Shown piece by piece: positions 20,584 through 63,609 of a stretch of DNA of 64,000 nt. Position 1 is the first letter of the stretch. Each line of letters starts with the position of its first letter. This DNA comes from Aurantiacibacter sp. D1-12 (lineage in GTDB: Bacteria; Pseudomonadota; Alphaproteobacteria; Sphingomonadales; Sphingomonadaceae): positions 62,001-126,000 of the forward strand of contig NZ_JAPJZJ010000004.1 in assembly GCF_028858515.1 (NCBI RefSeq), read 5' to 3'. The notes beneath the pieces are model-generated. The model worked only from the letters and a program-made list of their open reading frames with translations. It was not told the origin of the DNA and ran no database searches. The position numbers and the translations under genes were made by a program.

Positions 20584-21158
20584 TTCGGCAGCTCATCCAT
20601 ATCACGCAGCGCGCCCAGCACGGGGAGCAGGGGCATGCCCAGCACGGTGAAATTGTCGCCTTCGATCCGCTCGAACAATTGGACGCCCAGCGCCTCGATC
20701 CGAAAGACGCCAACGCAGTAGCCGACTTCCGGCCACTCGCGCTCAAGGTAGCTTTCGATGAAGCCTTCCGAAAGTTCGCGCACATGCAAGCGAGCAAGCG
20801 CGGCATGGTTCCACACCACTTCTCCACCGCGCGCCAGGGCAGCAGCAGAATGTAGCTCCATCACCTTGCCCGAAAAGAAGCGCAGATGTTCGGCGGCATT
20901 GTCCTTGTCGGTCGGTTTGTCGAACCGCTTGCCGTCAACGACAACCAGCGAATCCGAGCCCAGCACCGGCACGAGCGGCTCGTCCACCGCGAGCGACTTG
21001 GCCTCTGCCAGTGCGAGCGCGATGTCTCCCGGCGCTGCACCTTCCAGCGAGGCCTCGATCGCGCGTTCATCGAGATCGGCGGGGCGGGCTTCAAAGGCGA
21101 TGCCTGCATCACGCAGCATCGTCTGCCGAGAAGCGGACTTGGATGCGAGCACGATCAT
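20580..21158 (-). CDS. maf: Maf-family nucleotide pyrophosphatase
   Basis: Hydrolyses non-canonical or modified nucleoside triphosphates. The 192-residue product starts [15 protein letters not shown], with the Maf signature S-x-S-x-R, and has [17 protein letters not shown] with the conserved Asp and the [19 protein letters not shown]-terminal motif. Between ppsR and aroE, overlapping both by 4 bp. Confidence 0.93.
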
Positions 21159-22000
21159 ATCGGCTTGGGTCCCACGGCTGGCGGGACATCGCGACCTTCA
21201 CGCTCCTGATAGATACGGATGACCGCCGCCGCCGTTTCCTCAATAGAGCGGCGTGTTACGTCGATCACCGGCCAGCTGTTGTCGGCAAACATGCGGCGGG
21301 CAAAAGCCACCTCGTTCTTCACCCGCTCTTCATCGACATAGGATGTCTCGGTGTTCTCATTCAGCGAGAGCAGCCGGTTGCGACGAATCTGCACCAGCCG
21401 CTGCGGCGCCGTGGTAAGGCCGACAACCATCGGGTGCTTGAGACGGTAGAGCGTATCAGGCGGCGGGCTTTCTACGACCAGGGGGATGTTGGCCACTTTG
21501 AAACCACGGTTGGCGAGATAGATGCTGGTCGGCGTCTTCGATGTGCGCGATACGCCCGCGAGGACAATGTCGGCCTCTTCCCAGTTCTCCCACCCAATCC
21601 CGTCATCATGCGCGATAGTAAATTGGATGGCATCGACGCGAGCAAAATAGGCTGCGTCCATCTTGTGCTGGCGACCCGGACGACCTTTGGCGGCTTGGCC
21701 TAGCTGCTTTTCGAGCGCTTCGGTAATCGTCTCCAGTGCATCGGCATGGTCGATGCCCAAAGCCCGGCATCGCTCTTCCAACTGCTCGCGGATATCGGCA
21801 TTCACCAGTGTATACAGAACCAATCCGGGATTGGCCTTGAACTCGTCGATTGTTCGGTCAAGGTGCTGGCGCGAGCGCACCATCGGCCAGAAATGACGCT
21901 TGATATCGCTATCGTCGAACTGCGCGAGCGCAGCCTTGGCGATCATCTCCAGCGTTTCACCGGTGGAGTCGGACAGGAGGTGGAGGTGCAGCTTGGCCAT
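21155..22000 (-). CDS. ppsR: PPDK/PEP synthase regulatory protein, RP001 family
   Basis: Bifunctional kinase/pyrophosphorylase (DUF299) that switches pyruvate phosphate dikinase or PEP synthase off and on by threonine phosphorylation. The 281-residue product carries the P-loop [12 protein letters not shown] near residue 150 and the N-terminal [12 protein letters not shown] motif. ATG 22000 starts four residues before that conserved region; ATG 22018 is six codons upstream and also plausible. The family includes RP001, the gene next to the Rickettsia and Caulobacter origin, and here it faces away from hemE across the presumed origin. Confidence 0.93.
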
Positions 22001-22303
22001 GTGGATATGTGGCTGCATAAACCACGGGAGAGAATTGCGGACAAGATGGTGATGCAATTCCACCCCCGCTCCCGGCTGATTCGCGCGCAGGGAAATCCGC
22101 ACAAGCCGGATTCTTTCCGCAGGCTGTGAGTAACGGGGAGAAGCTTTGCTTGACGCGGAAGACCAACGAGTCGATGCGCGGATTCCACCACAGTCTCATG
22201 GAAGGATTCCGGTGATTGCGCGATTTCCCCGCAATCCACAGGCCCAACAAACATCAGAATCCTTCTATTAATATATTTATTTATTGGATTGGACCCTTCC
22301 AGG
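22001..22303. other. Probable chromosomal replication origin (oriC)
   Basis: Gene-free 303-bp interval between ppsR (RP001 family) and hemE, the position of the Caulobacter origin. It contains six GANTC sites (22078, 22109, 22168, 22181, 22205, 22257) within 184 bp, and a 9-bp inverted repeat GAAGGATTC/GAATCCTTC (22201-22209, 22257-22265). DnaA-box-like 9-mers are CAATCCACA at 22232 (7/9) and TGTGGATAT at 22000 (8/9 on the other strand), with weaker ones at 22036 and 22125. A 20-base run with no G or C follows. Flanking genes diverge from it. It also holds the promoters of ppsR and hemE. No strong DnaA box cluster is seen, so the call rests mainly on context. Confidence 0.7.
22266..22285. other. 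AT-only tract, candidate unwinding element or hemE promoter
   Basis: Twenty consecutive bases contain only A and T, striking against the GC-rich surroundings. It lies immediately after the inverted repeat and 18 bp before the hemE start, so it could be the DNA unwinding element, the hemE -10 region, or both. Confidence 0.55.
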
Positions 22304-23332
22304 ATGCCCGGATCACTGCTTGAAAACCTGCGCGGAACGCGAACCGAAAGGCGTCCGGTCTGGCTGATGCGGCAAGCAGGCCGCTATCTGCCCGAGTATC
22401 GTGAGCTGCGGGCGAGCAAGGGCGGTTTCCTCGAGCTGGTCTATGATAGCGAGGCGGCAGCAGAGGTCACCTTGCAGCCTTTGCGCCGTTTCGACTTTGA
22501 TGGGGCCATCCTGTTCTCCGACATTTTGATCGTGCCGCACGCGCTGGGGCAGAACCTGTGGTTCGAAGCAGGCGAAGGTCCGCGGCTAGCACCACCGCTC
22601 GTCGATGGCGCATGGCAGAGCCTCGAGAAGGCTTATCACCATTTCGAGCCGGTCTGGAAAACGGTGGAGCTGTGCAAGGCGCAGCTTGATGATCATGTCA
22701 CCATGCTCGGCTTTATCGGCTCACCCTGGACTGTGGCGACCTATATGGTGGCGGGGCAGGGATCGAAGGATCACGGCGCGACCCGATCGCTGGCCTATCG
22801 CGATCCGGCAGCGTTCCAGTCGCTGATCGATGCGATCGAGGCGGCGAGCCTGGAATATCTCATCGGACAGATCGATGCGGGCGCTGAAGCGGTGCAGTTG
22901 TTTGACAGCTGGGCGGGTTCACTCAGCCCCGCGCAGTTCGAGAAATGGGTCATCGCCCCCAACGCGCGGCTGGCCGCAGCCATCCATGAAGCGCGACCGG
23001 GCATTCCCGTCATCGGCTTTCCGAAAGGGGCGGGAGCCAAGCTGCCAGCCTATGCGCGCGAGACGGGCGTCGATGCGGTCGGTATTGATGAAACCACCGA
23101 CCCGGTGTGGATCAACGCGCAATTGCCTGCTGACATGCCTGTACAGGGCAATTGTGACCCGATGCAGCTGCTGGCGGGGGGGGAGGCCCTGGATACCCAT
23201 GCCAGGGCCATCCTTGACGCTTTCAGCGAGCGACCCCATGTGTTCAATCTCGGTCACGGAATCGACAAGACCACGCCTATCGAGAACGTCGATCGCCTAC
23301 TGGCGGTTGTTCGTGGGCAAGAGAGCGCGTAA
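22304..23332 (+). CDS. hemE: Uroporphyrinogen decarboxylase
   Basis: Decarboxylates uroporphyrinogen III to coproporphyrinogen III in heme synthesis. The 342-residue product has the signatures PVWLMRQAGRYLPEYR (active-site Arg), FSDILIVPHALG with the catalytic Asp, and GFPKGAGAK and NLGHGI motifs. The ATG at 22304 is used; an in-frame TTG at 22289 is less likely. It starts right after the presumed origin and is followed 12 bp later by hemJ. Confidence 0.97.
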   Translation: MPGSLLENLRGTRTERRPVWLMRQAGRYLPEYRELRASKGGFLELVYDSEAAAEVTLQPLRRFDFDGAILFSDILIVPHALGQNLWFEAGEGPRLAPPLVDGAWQSLEKAYHHFEPVWKTVELCKAQLDDHVTMLGFIGSPWTVATYMVAGQGSKDHGATRSLAYRDPAAFQSLIDAIEAASLEYLIGQIDAGAEAVQLFDSWAGSLSPAQFEKWVIAPNARLAAAIHEARPGIPVIGFPKGAGAKLPAYARETGVDAVGIDETTDPVWINAQLPADMPVQGNCDPMQLLAGGEALDTHARAILDAFSERPHVFNLGHGIDKTTPIENVDRLLAVVRGQESA

Positions 23333-23344
23333 AGCGCACTGGCG

Positions 23345-23788
23345 ATGCAGGAATATCTCTTAACAATCTACGCGTGGCTGAAGGCCGGACACATCATTTT
23401 CATGGTGTTCTGGATGGCGGGTCTGTTCATTCTGCCACGCCAGATGATCTATCTGCATTCCTATGGGGTGGATACGCCCGAACATGTGCAATGGGCAGAC
23501 CGGATGGGCAAGTTGCGCAAGATTATCCTGACGCCCAGCCTGATCGTGGTTTGGGTATTGGGTCTCGCGCTCATGTCCGCCATCGGTGCACACACGCAAG
23601 GCTGGTTCCACGCCAAGTTGCTCTTTGTCCTGTTGCTCACCGGCTATCATGGCTGGATGGTGGCAAAGGCGAAGGCGATGCTGCGTGGCGAGCGCCCGCT
23701 GACCGAGAAGCAATTGCGCCTGTTTGGCGAGATCCCGGGCGTGCTGCTCGCGATCATTGTTATCCTGGTTGTCGTCAAACCGTTCTGA
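23345..23788 (+). CDS. hemJ: Protoporphyrinogen oxidase HemJ
   Basis: Membrane enzyme oxidising protoporphyrinogen IX to protoporphyrin IX. The 147-residue product has four hydrophobic helices and the conserved HemJ residues: His in WLKAGHIIFMVFWMAGLF, Arg/Lys in GKLRKIILTPS, and KLLFVLLLTGYHGWM. It is the RP883-family gene of the conserved origin cluster and forms a heme operon with hemE. Confidence 0.93.
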   Translation: MQEYLLTIYAWLKAGHIIFMVFWMAGLFILPRQMIYLHSYGVDTPEHVQWADRMGKLRKIILTPSLIVVWVLGLALMSAIGAHTQGWFHAKLLFVLLLTGYHGWMVAKAKAMLRGERPLTEKQLRLFGEIPGVLLAIIVILVVVKPF

Positions 23789-25241: not shown

Positions 25242-25742
25242 CTAGGGTTTGAGCGTGATCTCGAACTGCTTAGTTTCATGTTTGAAACTGAAGCTGAAGA
25301 GTTTGAGAACGTCGAAGCCCAGAATTAGGTCGAAGTTCTGATTGTCCTCCATGTCGACGACCTCAAATGGCGTCTCGAGCTGGAAGAGTGTTAGTTCGCT
25401 GGGATTGTTTGGGTGAGTGGTAGCGCCACCTTCTACTCTGGTTGCCCATAGCCCTATCGAGGCGAGATATCGGGTGTGAGTTCGTGGGCCATGGAGGCCA
25501 GCAAACTCCATGTGACCAATTCGCACGAGTTCTTCGTTCGCAATCACGCTCCGCGAAAGCACAGTTCTTTGCGCGCCAGTATCGATCAGCGCTCGGTATT
25601 GTTGCTTCGAATAGCCCGCTACTAGGGCACCGTTGGTAAGCAATGGTTTTGTGATATTTGTAGGCAGAATTAGCCGATGTTGATCAAGCTCGCAGTGCTG
25701 AACTAACATGCGAGTAGAATCCGAGATCTTCGACGGCATCAT
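25242..25742 (-). CDS. Retropepsin-like aspartic protease
   Basis: Single-domain clan AA aspartic protease of 166 residues. The catalytic motif is ALIDTGAQRTVLS, and the second retropepsin signature FDLILGFDVLKLF lies near the C-terminus. No signal peptide or membrane helix is evident, so it is probably cytoplasmic and active as a homodimer. It overlaps the upstream 82-residue gene by 59 bp; ATGs at 25742, 25739 and 25709 are all possible starts, none with a strong Shine-Dalgarno. Base composition is visibly more AT-rich than the neighbours, suggesting acquisition. Substrate unknown. Confidence 0.75.
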   Translation of the reverse strand: MMPSKISDSTRMLVQHCELDQHRLILPTNITKPLLTNGALVAGYSKQQYRALIDTGAQRTVLSRSVIANEELVRIGHMEFAGLHGPRTHTRYLASIGLWATRVEGGATTHPNNPSELTLFQLETPFEVVDMEDNQNFDLILGFDVLKLFSFSFKHETKQFEITLKP

Positions 25743-25932
25743 CAACGGGCTCTACTGAGAAGTTGCCTTCTCCGTAGCGCTTCATTCCAGCCATAATTGC
25801 TTCCAAACTTGTCGCGAAAAACTCGTCGACAGATTCGTCATGCAGGAGGGCATGCTCACCTCTGTGATTGGCCAAGAGCTTGGTTAGGTTGGATTTGAAC
25901 CAACGGTAGTTTGCTTCCGATTGATCGCGCAT
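25684..25932 (-). CDS. Small acidic protein paired with the retropepsin
   Basis: An 82-residue protein, largely acidic, without membrane segments. ATG 25932 follows a perfectly spaced GGAGG (8 bases). The layout (NYRWFKSNLTKLLANHRGEH, then LHDESVDEFFATSLEAI, then GEGNFSVEPVDDAVE) resembles small proteins of the DUF5678 type that neighbour retropepsin genes in other bacteria and archaea; this resemblance is from memory and not verified. The overlap with the protease gene implies co-expression. It could be a substrate, inhibitor or targeting partner of the protease. Confidence 0.6.
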   Translation of the reverse strand: MRDQSEANYRWFKSNLTKLLANHRGEHALLHDESVDEFFATSLEAIMAGMKRYGEGNFSVEPVDDAVEDLGFYSHVSSALRA

Positions 25933-25965
25933 CTCTCGATCCTCCACCGATAGACTACACTACAC

Positions 25966-26011
25966 GACTCGAAGATTCCATTTCAAAGTTCGAATCGATC
26001 CGATTCGAATC
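25966..26011. promoter_or_regulatory. GANTC-rich palindromic control region of the retropepsin cassette
   Basis: Five GANTC sites (25966, 25974, 25992, 26002, 26007) fall in 46 bp. They include the perfect palindrome TTCGAATCG-ATC-CGATTCGAA at 25989-26009. A possible -35 (TTGAAA on the minus strand) lies at its cassette-side edge. It may be an operator, a methylation-controlled promoter, or a hairpin ending the upstream NTF2 gene. Confidence 0.55.
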
Positions 26012-28739: not shown

Positions 28740-28755
28740 TGTTCCACGTGGAACA
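28740..28755. other. parS centromere site 1
   Basis: Perfect 16-bp palindrome TGTTCCACGTGGAACA, identical to the ParB-binding consensus of alphaproteobacteria. It sits in the mnmE-mnmG gap. Confidence 0.93.
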
Positions 28756-28812: not shown

Positions 28813-30666
28813 ATGACGCATTTCGATGTCATCACTATTGGCGGCGGGCACGCCGGTTGCGAGGCTGCGGCGGTTGCGGCGCGCATGGGTGTGCGCTCGG
28901 CGCTGGTGACTTTCGATGCCGTGAAGCTTGGTGCGATGAGCTGCAACCCCGCGATTGGTGGTCTTGGCAAGGGACACCTGGTTCGCGAGGTTGATGCTTT
29001 CGATGGCTTGATCGGGCGCGCAGCCGATGCGGCGGCAATCCATTACCGCATGCTCAACCGGTCGAAGGGCAGCGCAGTCCATGGTCCGCGCATTCAGGCC
29101 GACCGAAAGCTGTTCCGCGCCTCGGTTCAATCAATGCTTGCTGCGCAGGAAAATCTGACTGTGATCGAGGGCGAGGCTGCGGAGCTCATCCTTGAGAATG
29201 GCCGCGCCGCTGGCATTCGGCTGGGTGATGGCAGTGAAGTGCGCGGGGCGGCGGTAATCCTCTGCACCGGTACTTTTCTCGGCGGCACGCTTTTCAGGGG
29301 TGAGGAGCGCTTCGAAGGCGGGCGTATCGGAGAGGAATCGGCACAGAAACTCGCGCAACAGCTGCGTGCAGCGGATTTGCCAATGGCGCGTCTCAAGACC
29401 GGTACGCCGCCAAGGCTCGACGGGCGCACCATCGACTGGGCGCAGTTGCAGGAGCAGCCTTCTGACGCTGACCATTGGACCATGTCTCCACTGACGCGTG
29501 AGCGGCTCAATCCGCAGATCTTCTGTGCGATCACCCGCACCAACCCGCGGGCGCATGAGGTTATCGCAGAGAGCCTCCACCGCTCGCCTCTGTTTACCGG
29601 CGCAATCGATGCCGCAGGACCGCGATACTGCCCCTCGATCGAAGACAAGATTCATCGCTTTGCAGACAGGGACGGGCACCAGATCTTCCTCGAGCCAGAA
29701 GGGCTGGACACGCACCTTGTTTATCCCAACGGGATCAGCACTTCGCTCCCCGTTGATGTGCAACTGAACATGTTGCGCGCCATGGAGGGGCTTGAGCAGG
29801 TTGAGATGGAAGTGCCCGGCTATGCAGTCGAGTACGACCATATCGACCCTCGTGCCCTTGGCACGGACCTACAGCTAAAGGCAATCCCCGGGCTTTACTG
29901 TGCCGGGCAGATCAATGGTACGACCGGATACGAGGAGGCTGCTGCGCAAGGGCTTCTTGCAGGCATGTATACCGCAGCGTCAGTGAAAGACGTATCTGCA
30001 CCTGCTCTGGATCGCGCCAATTCATACATGGCGGTGATGATGGACGACCTCACTCTGCATGGGGTAAGTGAGCCGTATCGGATGCTCACGGCCCGCGCAG
30101 AGTATCGACTTCGCCTCCGCGCCAACAATGCGTCAACACGGCTCACACCCATTGCTCTGGAAATGCAGTGCGTGGGTGAGGAGCGCTCGCGCTGGTTTGC
30201 CGAGCGTTTGGATAAGTGTTCCACGTGGAACACGGCACTTGATGCCGAAATCTCCGCAGTGGATCTCAATGACGCGGGACTCCCCGTAAAGCGTGACGCA
30301 GGGAAGAAGACGGTTCGGGAGTGGCTGGCATTCCCCGATCTGCCGCTCGATGTCCTTTCCCCTTGGCTCCCCGATGATTGCGACCCGCACAGCGCGTTGG
30401 CGGCTGAGCTTGCCGAAGACGCCGCTTATGCGCCGTATCTCGCGCGGCAGGAAGCCGAACTGCGCGACCTGCGCAGCAGCGAGGCTTTGGCATTGGGTGA
30501 CGATTTCCCCTTTGGCGACGTTCCTGGCCTCTCCAACGAGATGGTTGAACGCCTTTCTGCAGCCAAGCCCGAGACGCTGGCGGCGGCGGGTCGGGTTCGC
30601 GGAATTACACCGGCAGCACTTGCGGCATTGTTGGTACACGCGAAGCGTCGTAATCGAGCGGCATGA
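28813..30666 (+). CDS. mnmG: tRNA modification enzyme MnmG (GidA)
   Basis: FAD-dependent partner of MnmE in wobble uridine modification. The 617-residue product has the Rossmann motif [16 protein letters not shown] at the start, [19 protein letters not shown], and [10 protein letters not shown] with the FAD contact. It also has the C-terminal helical domain ([14 protein letters not shown]). ATG 28813 is chosen, next to the conserved strand; ATGs at 28789 and 28792 are also in frame. parS site 2 is inside the reading frame. The stop overlaps rsmG by 4 bp. Confidence 0.96.
30217..30232. other. parS centromere site 2, inside mnmG
   Basis: Perfect TGTTCCACGTGGAACA within the mnmG coding sequence. 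It encodes CSTWNT in that frame, so the palindrome coexists with protein coding. Confidence 0.93.
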
Positions 30667-31286
30667 TCACCAACGAAGAAGAGGCGAGGGCATTTTGCGC
30701 AGCGCGCTGCGATGCAGACGGTATGGCGCGTATCGAGCGTTTTGCCGGGATGCTCGCAGAAGAGAATGCGCGTCAGAACCTTGTGTCGGCTGCTAGCCTC
30801 GAAACCGTGTGGCAGCGCCATATGGCGGACAGCCTGCAATTACTTGACTACGCGGGGGATGGCGTCGGGCCTTGGCTCGATCTTGGCTCGGGCCCAGGTT
30901 TACCCGGCCTCGTCCTTGCTCTGGCGCGCCCAAACATGCCCATCGGCCTGGTCGAATCACGCCGCAAACGATTCGAGTGGCTGGAGCAGGTGAAGGGCGA
31001 ATTCGGGCTATCGAACTGCACTGTGCACGGAAAGCGGCTCGAACATGTGGATAGCTGTGAAACTGGCGTAATCACTGCGCGCGCCTTCGCTCCGCTTGAT
31101 AAACTCCTCAGGTTATCCGCCCGTTTTTCCACACGCTCGACCATTTGGCTGTTGCCCAAAGGGCGTTCGGCAGCGCAAGAATTGTCGGAGCAACCTCATG
31201 CAACCAGGCAAATGTTCCACGTGGAACAATCGCAGACGGATGCAGAGGCGGCCATTTTAGTCGGGAAGGGGAAGCCAGCGCCATGA
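30663..31286 (+). CDS. rsmG: 16S rRNA m7G527 methyltransferase RsmG
   Basis: Methylates G527 of 16S rRNA at N7. The 207-residue product has the SAM-binding motif [15 protein letters not shown] near residue 75, [11 protein letters not shown] and [14 protein letters not shown]. The C-terminal part is variable and includes the codons of parS site 3. Start overlaps the mnmG stop; the stop overlaps parA by 4 bp, the standard gid operon order. Confidence 0.95.
31213..31228. other. parS centromere site 3, inside rsmG
   Basis: Perfect TGTTCCACGTGGAACA in the 3' part of rsmG, 54 bp before the parA start. In the rsmG frame it reads through MFHVEQ. Confidence 0.93.
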
Positions 31287-32059
31287 TCGTGATCGCCATA
31301 GCCAATCAGAAGGGCGGCGTGGGCAAGACTACCACCGCCATCAATATCGCGACGGCAATGGCGGCGAGTGGCTGGCGCACGCTTCTGATCGACTTGGATC
31401 CGCAGGGTAATGCCTCGACCGGCGTGGGCCTAGCAGCAGCGCAGCGTGATGTCTCAAGCTATGATCTGCTGGTTGACGAGGTTCCGGTGGAGGAATGCAC
31501 CGTTGCCTCCTCCATCCCGGGCCTCGACCTGATTCCGGCAACGGTTGACCTGAGTGGGGCGGAAGTAGAGCTGGTTGGCGCCGAAGCGCGTTCTTTCCGC
31601 CTTCGCGATGCTCTCGCAGAGCATGATGCGCACGATATATGCTTTATCGACTGTCCGCCTTCGTTGGGCCTGCTGACACTCAACGCGTTGTGTGCCGCAG
31701 ATACGCTGATGGTGCCGCTGCAGTGCGAATTCTTCGCTCTGGAGGGCCTCAGCCAGCTTTTGCAGACGGTTGAGCAGGTTCAGCAGCGTTTCAATCCCGA
31801 TCTGGGCATCATTGGCATCGCCCTGACCATGTTTGACCGCCGCAATCGCCTGACCGACCAGGTGGCAGATGATGTGCGCGAATGCCTGGGTGATCTGGTG
31901 TTCGAAGCGGTAATTCCGCGCAATGTTCGCCTGTCAGAGGCGCCAAGCCACGGATTGCCTGCGCTGGTTTACGACCACGCATGTATGGGGAGCAGGGCCT
32001 ATATGGATCTGGCGCGCGAACTGATTGGCCGCCTGCCGCAGGAAAGGGTTGCAGCATGA
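31283..32059 (+). CDS. parA: Chromosome partitioning ATPase ParA
   Basis: Walker-type ATPase that segregates the ParB-parS complex to the new pole. The 258-residue product begins directly with the deviant Walker A IANQKGGVGKTTTAIN (K10 and K15), and has FIDCPPSLGLLTL and VPLQCEFFALEG motifs. The short N-terminus without a helix-turn-helix marks the chromosomal Soj type. It overlaps rsmG and parB by 4 bp each. Confidence 0.97.
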   Translation: MIVIAIANQKGGVGKTTTAINIATAMAASGWRTLLIDLDPQGNASTGVGLAAAQRDVSSYDLLVDEVPVEECTVASSIPGLDLIPATVDLSGAEVELVGAEARSFRLRDALAEHDAHDICFIDCPPSLGLLTLNALCAADTLMVPLQCEFFALEGLSQLLQTVEQVQQRFNPDLGIIGIALTMFDRRNRLTDQVADDVRECLGDLVFEAVIPRNVRLSEAPSHGLPALVYDHACMGSRAYMDLARELIGRLPQERVAA

Positions 32060-33015
32060 GCGAGAAAGAGACCTCAACGCGCAAACGCAAGCTCGGCAAG
32101 GGATTGGGCGCACTTTTGGGCGAAGCACGCCGCGAGGAGCCCTTGGTAGCAACGAAGCGTCCTTCACCCGGTAATGACGACAGCTCGGGCAGTACGCCTG
32201 ATACAGCGGCAGATGGCCTCGCCACCCTGGCTATCGCCGATATCGAGCCGCACCCTGATCAGCCGCGCCGTCATTTCGACGAAGATGCGCTTTCGGAGCT
32301 GGCTGCCTCGATCTCGACCCGCGGTGTGATCCAGCCCGTGATTGTCCGCCCGGTGGGCAAGGGCAAATATCAGCTGGTGGCGGGTGAGCGTCGCTGGCGT
32401 GCCTCGCAGAAGGCACAACTCCATGAAATTCCAGCAATTGTTCGTGACTTGGGTGATCGCGACGTCATGGCGCTGGCGCTTATCGAGAATATCCAGCGTG
32501 AAGACCTGAACCCGGTCGAGGAAGCGCGTGCCTATGCACGCCTGGCTGAATTCGAGGAGATGACACAGGCCGAGATCGCCACGCTGGTCGAGAAATCGCG
32601 CAGCCATGTGGCGAACCTCCAGCGTTTGCTGTCGCTTCCGGCGTCGGTTCTCGATCATCTCGAAGCCGGAAGGCTCGATATGGGGCATGGCCGTGCGCTG
32701 ATCGGGCTAGAGAAGGCTGCAGAGATCGCCGAGGAGGCCGTCTCTAAGCGCCTTTCGGTCCGCGAGGTCGAGAAACTGGCTCGCAAAAGCCGCGCGGGCA
32801 GCGAAGCATCGACACGCCGCCAGGCGCGCCCACCGCGCGATCCAGCGCAGGATGCCGATATTGCTGCGGTCGAGAACCATCTCGAGGAGTTTCTAGGACT
32901 ACCGGTGAAGATCGCCACCGATGAAGACCCAAGGTCGGGCCAGGTCACAGTGCGATTCCGCACACTCGATCAATTAGACCTTATCTGTCAGAGACTTACT
33001 GGCGGCGGGATCTGA
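32056..33015 (+). CDS. parB: Chromosome partitioning protein ParB
   Basis: CTP-dependent clamp that binds parS and spreads. The 319-residue product has the N-terminal ParA-contact segment KRKLGKGLGALLGEA, the CTP-binding ParB/Srx domain with QPVIVRPVGKGKYQLVAGERRWRA, the conserved NIQREDLNPVEEA, a helix-turn-helix (EIATLVEKSRSHVANLQRLL) and a C-terminal dimer domain. Upstream parS sites in this window are its expected targets. Confidence 0.97.
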   Translation: MSEKETSTRKRKLGKGLGALLGEARREEPLVATKRPSPGNDDSSGSTPDTAADGLATLAIADIEPHPDQPRRHFDEDALSELAASISTRGVIQPVIVRPVGKGKYQLVAGERRWRASQKAQLHEIPAIVRDLGDRDVMALALIENIQREDLNPVEEARAYARLAEFEEMTQAEIATLVEKSRSHVANLQRLLSLPASVLDHLEAGRLDMGHGRALIGLEKAAEIAEEAVSKRLSVREVEKLARKSRAGSEASTRRQARPPRDPAQDADIAAVENHLEEFLGLPVKIATDEDPRSGQVTVRFRTLDQLDLICQRLTGGGI

Positions 33016-63481: not shown

Positions 63482-63609
63482 GATTCGAGTGAGAGGTCGA
63501 GTCACGGCGCTCTGACTCCGGGGCGAATCGAAGAAGTGGTGCGATGAATCGTTTCGTCGTGTAAAATTTTCGTGCTTTTTGCGGGAACCAAATGATCTCG
63601 GAACGATTC
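63482..63609. promoter_or_regulatory. GANTC cluster between the M23-bactofilin operon and proA
   Basis: GANTC sites at 63482, 63499, 63514, 63525, 63546 and 63605 fall within 128 bp of the divergent promoter region. The spacing suggests methylation-sensitive promoters (CcrM/GcrA type). No other feature is recognised in this gap. Confidence 0.5.

Follow-up and report, generated by a model that had tools for sequence, protein, structure and literature searches.

The origin of the Caulobacter crescentus chromosome (Cori) lies between hemE and a COG1806 gene, with parS within 8 kb, and is described as combining weak DnaA boxes, W-boxes among them, with an A/T-rich part and several GANTC sites (the last mentioned in PMC3973325), features that it shares with the locus studied here (PMC1914354, PMC4468827, PMC4285127, PMC3973325). 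Among the sphingomonads, Ori-Finder predictions place oriC beside hemE in both Sphingopyxis granuli TFA and Novosphingobium sp. PP1Y, with DnaA boxes in each and, for S. granuli, a putative DNA unwinding element (DUE) and conserved gene order, again as seen here (PMC4741004, PMC4059872). A hemE-linked sphingomonad oriC has already been predicted in print, and the gap described below adds another case. The use of hemE linkage as a rule for placing the origin is attributed to Brassinga et al. 2001.

The window analyzed here is a 64-kb stretch (contig C7, positions 62001-126000) of a 2.57-Mb genome in 12 contigs, whose nearest named HemE relative, at 92% identity, is Aurantiacibacter sediminis; on the strength of this one protein, the organism probably belongs to that genus. 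An initial annotation had proposed a probable chromosome origin in the gap between an RP001-family ppsR and hemE-hemJ, and profile searches confirmed this gene context, which is that of a hemE-type oriC. The left flank is ppsR (COG1806/RP001 family; 21155-22000, minus strand; PF03618, E 6.5e-97), and the right flank is hemE (22304-23332, plus strand; PF01208, E 4.1e-110 when searched from the TTG at 22289), followed by a UPF0093 gene (23345-23788, plus strand; PF03653) that we take to be hemJ. The gap is exactly 303 bp long (22001-22303), bounded by the minus-strand ATG of ppsR, whose first base is 22000, and by the hemE ATG at 22304, a start that is aligned in all 30 same-genus stretches (our own included) and that differs from the longer GTG and TTG starts of the open reading frame list. 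Both genes are transcribed outward from the gap, as had been noted. Past hemE, family matches give the order UPF0093 (hemJ-like), rho and, later, mnmE and mnmG, beyond which lie ORFs that by eye resemble rsmG, parA and parB. A structured RNA in the gap was rejected, as Rfam returned no match up to an E value of 1 in 21900-22400.

For comparison, we collected 115 stretches upstream of hemE: 30 from the same genus (our own included), 20 from order-level relatives and 65 from named contigs, some of which may duplicate strains of other genomes in the sample. HemE was found in 60 of the 61 genomes searched (G033 had no match); the gap set does not include the same-genus genomes G007, G008, G009, G016, G028 and G035 or the order-level genomes G044, G055, G056 and G060. 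In 113 of the 115 stretches, including our own, ppsR diverges from hemE; no gap was obtained from L064, which is cut at a contig end, or from L111, which has no ppsR match. Apart from one gap of 988 bp, lengths range between 288 and 520 bp, counted up to where the HemE match begins and not up to the start codon. Four named-contig gaps (L073-L076) were assigned to the genus on the basis of HemE identity (80-92%), and the 34 same-genus gaps were reduced to 32 distinct ones, with a mean pairwise identity of 0.63, by removal of two repeats. Gaps L077-L137 were grouped as other sphingomonads by our own label.

The initial annotation had named a GC-skew minimum at another locus as grounds for rejecting an origin here. 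Over 220 kb of the contig, the cumulative GC-skew minimum falls at C7:83,334-83,340 (window position ~21,335), 0.7 kb from the gap, a result that does not refute the proposal, and the keto skew reaches its minimum at C7:83,338. The trough is broad and shallow: at C7:74,188, ~9 kb away, the GC skew stands at -771 versus -780 at the minimum, a difference of 9 counts. We also interpolated skew minima for three complete same-genus chromosomes from 20 sampled stretches each, spaced more densely near hemE. In G002, the minimum (925 kb) is 2 kb from hemE (927 kb), and 4 of 2000 permutations came as close; in G018 and G010, where the profiles are noisy, it lies 44 kb and 149 kb from hemE, with 91 and 180 of 2000 permutations as close. 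The skew shift of a hemE-type oriC is therefore found on the contig itself, in shallow form, and near hemE in G002, and is displaced in the other two relatives. One sampled stretch of G010 (C1:1840001-1855000) has a G+C content of 31.7%, versus 60-66% in the other samples of that chromosome.

Segregation sites and genes also lie nearby, as at a hemE-type oriC. Three exact copies of TGTTCCACGTGGAACA, which we take to be the parS consensus, occur at 28740-28755, 30217-30232 and 31213-31228, between 6.4 and 8.9 kb from the gap, and the genome has no other match to this 16-mer at up to one mismatch. They are followed by a parA-like ORF (31283-32059, plus strand), recognized by eye through the motif KGGVGKTT, and a parB-like ORF (32056-33015, plus strand), also named by eye. 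Matches to the parS 16-mer likewise lie within ~9 kb of hemE in G002, G010 and G018. By analogy with established systems, ParB bound at these sites would segregate the new origins. The dnaA gene sits on a different contig (C5) and, in the three complete relatives, lies 418-516 kb from hemE, and we rejected a dnaA-linked origin on this account. This distance agrees with a survey reporting that in the Sphingomonadales dnaA is not kept near the origin, while parAB is near it in almost all genomes (PMC8116508).

Within the gap, the DnaA boxes had been described as weak, and weak they are: the best matches to TTATCCACA are one with a single mismatch and three with two. The 64-kb window has no exact DnaA consensus box; it holds 7 matches with one mismatch and 97 with two, so that the number of boxes is uninformative by itself. 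Conservation is better evidence than box count. Alignment of the 32 distinct same-genus gaps revealed ten conserved blocks, and at all six ranks the aligned blocks come nearer to the DnaA box than permuted versions of the 9-mer do (1 of 200 permutations scoring as low). The best DnaA-like aligned 9-mers start at 22232 (plus), 22125 (minus), 22036 (minus), 22134 (minus) and 22018 (plus). In sequence terms, the DnaA boxes of a hemE-type oriC are thus present, weak singly and conserved as a set.

From left to right, the first of these elements is a DnaA-like box beside the ppsR start (ATATCCACA, 22000-22008, minus strand), with one mismatch to TTATCCACA; its GTGGA (22001-22005) is invariant in the 32 gaps. 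Next comes the block GCATAAACCACGGGAG (22015-22030, plus strand; block mean 0.98), whose DnaA-like core TAAACCACG (22018-22026) has three mismatches to TTATCCACA in all 32 rows. Nearly invariant in the genus, this block seems to be under tighter constraint than a weak DnaA box would call for, and another protein may bind it. The sequence ATAAACCACGGG is exact in 32 of the 34 same-genus gaps; it is also exact in six other gaps, five from named Novosphingobium species and one from a Novosphingobium sp. A third DnaA-like box, TTGTCCGCA (22036-22044, minus strand), averages 2.56 mismatches over the aligned rows. The central element (22125-22142, minus strand) pairs a DnaA-like box with a W-box-like GGGGA and supplied our anchor, TGTGAGTAACGGGGA (22125-22139). 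At 22226-22242 on the plus strand, a W-box-like TCCCCG precedes the DnaA-like box CAATCCACA(GG), the conserved blocks here being TCCCCG and ATCCACAGG; CAATCCACA is the best DnaA-like aligned 9-mer of the gap, with a mean of 1.78 mismatches. For reference, PMC4285127 gives TCCCCA as the consensus of the W-box and TGATCCACA as the G-box of Caulobacter; unlike those of Cori, the one- and two-mismatch boxes here are not of G-box form.

The A/T-only run of 20 bases reported by the initial annotation is present at 22266-22285. It is the only such run of at least 12 bp in the window and of at least 16 bp in 220 kb of the contig, and we predict that it serves as the DNA unwinding element, the A/T-rich element of a hemE-type oriC. 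A stretch of 20 bases that is A/T at 17 positions or more occurs in all 34 same-genus gaps, in 58 of 60 gaps from other sphingomonads and in 17 of 19 from other families. A scan with a presumed IHF consensus gave one weak match, with one mismatch, inside the tract. No CtrA site (TTAA-N7-TTAA) was found, either exactly in the window or at up to two mismatches in 21991-22310, and CtrA control was rejected; in this the gap differs from Cori, and its one candidate IHF match is weak. From this anatomy, DnaA would assemble on several weak boxes (five DnaA-like blocks are conserved, and two of these lie beside W-box-like sequences) and would then melt the A/T tract adjoining hemE.

We next considered the GANTC sites, the recognition sequence of the CcrM methylase. 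Six were counted within 184 bp, in agreement with the initial annotation, starting at 22078, 22109, 22168, 22181, 22205 and 22257. In dinucleotide shuffles, the gap sequence yields 1.64 sites on average and reaches six in 22 of 5000 cases, and the window as a whole averages 0.62 per 303 bp. Even so, over 220 kb of the contig, six or more GANTC fall within 303 bp in three places: the gap and two others, both within 42 kb. One of these two (25717-26011) packs seven sites into 295 bp, five within 46 bp as overlapping GATTCGAATC, upstream of a minus-strand ORF that by eye resembles a retropepsin-type aspartic protease; the other (63482-63609) has six in 128 bp, between an M23 peptidase-like ORF (minus strand) and a proA-like ORF (plus strand), both named by eye. 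With two other stretches of the contig equally dense, we rejected GANTC density as stand-alone evidence of an origin: the cluster is real, and its support for an origin is weaker than had been taken. Across Alphaproteobacteria, GANTC is reported to rise around the origin in four orders, including the Sphingomonadales (PMC9836097).

These dense neighbors raise the question of whether the gap is simply a divergent ppsR/hemE promoter region, GANTC-rich like other alphaproteobacterial intergenic regions, with replication starting elsewhere. In orders with CcrM, GANTC is indeed over-represented between genes (PMC3973325), and the weakness of the DnaA boxes and the distant skew minima of G018 and G010 lean the same way. 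Against this, the contig skew minimum, parS, the A/T tract and the conserved DnaA-like blocks converge on the gap, and dnaA, a common alternative candidate, is on another contig here and far from hemE in the three complete relatives. We regard a promoter without an origin as very improbable. The contig skew minimum, parS, the remote dnaA and the conservation of the ppsR-hemE arrangement support the original proposal, and several lines of sequence evidence place the origin in this genome: the intergenic gap at 22001-22303 is very probably the chromosomal replication origin (oriC) of this sphingomonad close to Aurantiacibacter.

GANTC enrichment extends to the whole genus sample, where the 32 distinct gaps contain 131 sites versus 38 ± 5.8 in shuffles, and seven other palindromic control pentamers of the same make-up total between 4 and 46. 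This excess, 3.5 times the shuffle mean, would suit a cluster acting as one functional unit, a multi-site methylation array. The number per gap, however, varies from 2 to 7 among the 34 same-genus gaps, and five of the six sites are each present in no more than 17 of 32 rows: the site at 22078-22082 in 16, those at 22109-22113 and 22181-22185 in fewer than three, and those at 22205 and 22257 in 7 and 17. The last two lie in the arms of the 9-bp inverted repeat that had been noted around a DnaA-like 9-mer. That repeat exists as described, with the left arm GAAGGATTC (22201-22209) and the right arm GAATCCTTC (22257-22265) 47 nt apart and enclosing CAATCCACA (22232-22240); with its left-arm GANTC in 7 of 32 rows, we rejected it as a conserved element. 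An array is accordingly an improbable reading, and the five sites turn over, probably without individual roles. Elsewhere in the sample, two order-level relatives (G040 and G052; gaps L056 and L067) carry 13 GANTC in a 457-bp ppsR-hemE gap each, a far denser arrangement. Ten are present in the 331-bp gap L105, labeled as a Brevundimonas sp. metagenome-assembled genome; its HemE and the query share 65% identity, as is the case for sphingomonads in the same scan, and the bin label may be wrong.

The sixth site behaves differently. The GANTC at 22168 is present in all 32 distinct same-genus gaps, as GAGTC in 31 and GATTC in one, and is the only such site. When 30 same-genus gaps (L003-L032, no row lost) are placed on a hemE tree, the five columns of this site require 0, 0, 1, 0 and 0 parsimony changes and the following G none, versus a median of 10 for the surrounding columns. 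On a tree of 39 gaps from the family, the N column requires 4 changes versus a surrounding median of 7; as these rows were selected because they have GANTC at offset 25 (10 gaps with offset 26 were left out), the zeros at the four fixed columns follow by construction, and the informative parsimony is that of the N column and of the genus tree.

Offsets were measured from the central DnaA-box/W-box pair, using TGTGGATANNGGGGA at up to four mismatches as the anchor. A stricter first anchor had missed 17 of 32 genus, 28 of 60 family and all 19 other-family rows; the relaxed one leaves out L108 among the 60 family rows, and 13 of the 19 rows from other families. By this measure, a GANTC lies at offset 43-44 in all 32 same-genus gaps. 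Among the other sphingomonads, 59 of 60 gaps were anchored, 49 with a GANTC at 25-26 and six with one at 44 (one gap having both). Taken together, 86 of 91 anchored sphingomonad gaps have a GANTC at 24-27 or 42-45, figures that are descriptive, the classes having been chosen after inspection of the data and the rows being related. The five anchored gaps with a GANTC in neither class are L103, L106, L109, L110 and L112; L103 does have the TTGAC-GAGTCG form, its anchor having fallen elsewhere. In other families, one of the 6 gaps anchored (of 19) has a site in these classes, and the locked GANTC is therefore not seen order-wide. Sphingopyxis gaps have their fixed GANTC at offset 26, as CGACTC, rather than at 43-44 as here; this is accompanied, for example in L101, by a second GANTC at offset 53-54, where GAGTCAAG is CTTGACTC on the opposite strand. 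Throughout the genus sample, then, a GANTC stands 43-44 nt from the central pair. Our literature searches, run on the broader topic with supplements outside their scope, turned up no sphingomonad origin described as having a GANTC at a fixed position, and GANTC is absent from the main texts of PMC4741004 and PMC4059872.

What might hold this site in place? Its context, CGAGTCG (22167-22173, plus strand), fits YGAKTCG, cited in PMC7987155 as the extended motif of methylated Caulobacter promoters activated by GcrA; the same paper reports that the extension was not found in Brevundimonas. The motif is matched at the locked site in 26 of the 32 distinct same-genus gaps. It is not rare, with 23 occurrences on either strand of the window, and it appears in 20 of the 60 other sphingomonad gaps (shuffles average 8.5, with a maximum of 16); as 40 of the 60 are without it, conservation of the locked position reaches further than that of the extended motif. 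In addition, a conserved TTGAC (22150-22154, plus strand) could be a -35 element directed toward hemE. The pattern TTGAC-N-GANTCG, with TTGAC 13-14 nt before the site, occurs in 31 of 34 same-genus gaps, and this spacing would put the locked site between the -35 and -10 elements. In Caulobacter, a GANTC in that position is associated with activation 40-60 minutes into the cell cycle (PMC4287350). A scan of the gap for a sigma-70 promoter found none. A uniform hemE promoter across the family was also considered and is weakened by Sphingopyxis, where GAGTCAAG puts TTGAC on the other strand.

The genome encodes the proteins that such a promoter would require. It has one match to PF01555, an N6-methylase family, and the matching protein also carries a RAMA domain, a make-up that we take to be that of CcrM. 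A GcrA match was found as well, with a profile that, among 14 control genomes, also matched Caulobacter and, unexpectedly, Sulfolobus. CcrM and GcrA would thus both be encoded, and the locked GANTC is probably methylated by CcrM. We suggest that it may belong to a promoter, responsive to GcrA/CcrM and located inside the origin, where its hemimethylated state would report that the origin had been freshly copied. We put this forward tentatively, and slightly more so because only 20 of the 60 other sphingomonad gaps hold YGAKTCG. In comparison with known GcrA/CcrM promoters, the fit to the motif is shared, here and in most rows of the genus; the location inside an origin and the absence of the motif from 40 of 60 other sphingomonad gaps are not.

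Alternatively, the locked GANTC could gate initiation itself, in the manner of Dam and SeqA, with methylation or a reader of it altering DnaA assembly at the central pair. The two preferred distances from that pair, 24-27 and 42-45 nt in 86 of 91 anchored gaps, speak for such a gate, and over-expression of CcrM gives extra chromosome copies in Caulobacter, as cited in PMC3973325, which counts for a role in replication. The same paper reports that Caulobacter without CcrM has a normal DNA content profile, which counts against one, and within the genus a GcrA-type promoter motif accounts for the site equally well. A direct gate on DnaA assembly is therefore rather unlikely in our view, and we favor the GcrA/CcrM-responsive promoter over it.

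In place of a general impression that many GANTC sites occur near the origin, these comparisons give one defined, conserved site. It is possible, though doubtful, that in sphingomonad origins a single locked CcrM site, in phase with the central DnaA-box/W-box pair, couples the methylation state of a just-copied origin to GcrA binding and to transcription or re-initiation, a coupling not found necessary in Caulobacter. The locked site bears on whether CcrM methylation joins replication control outside Caulobacter.
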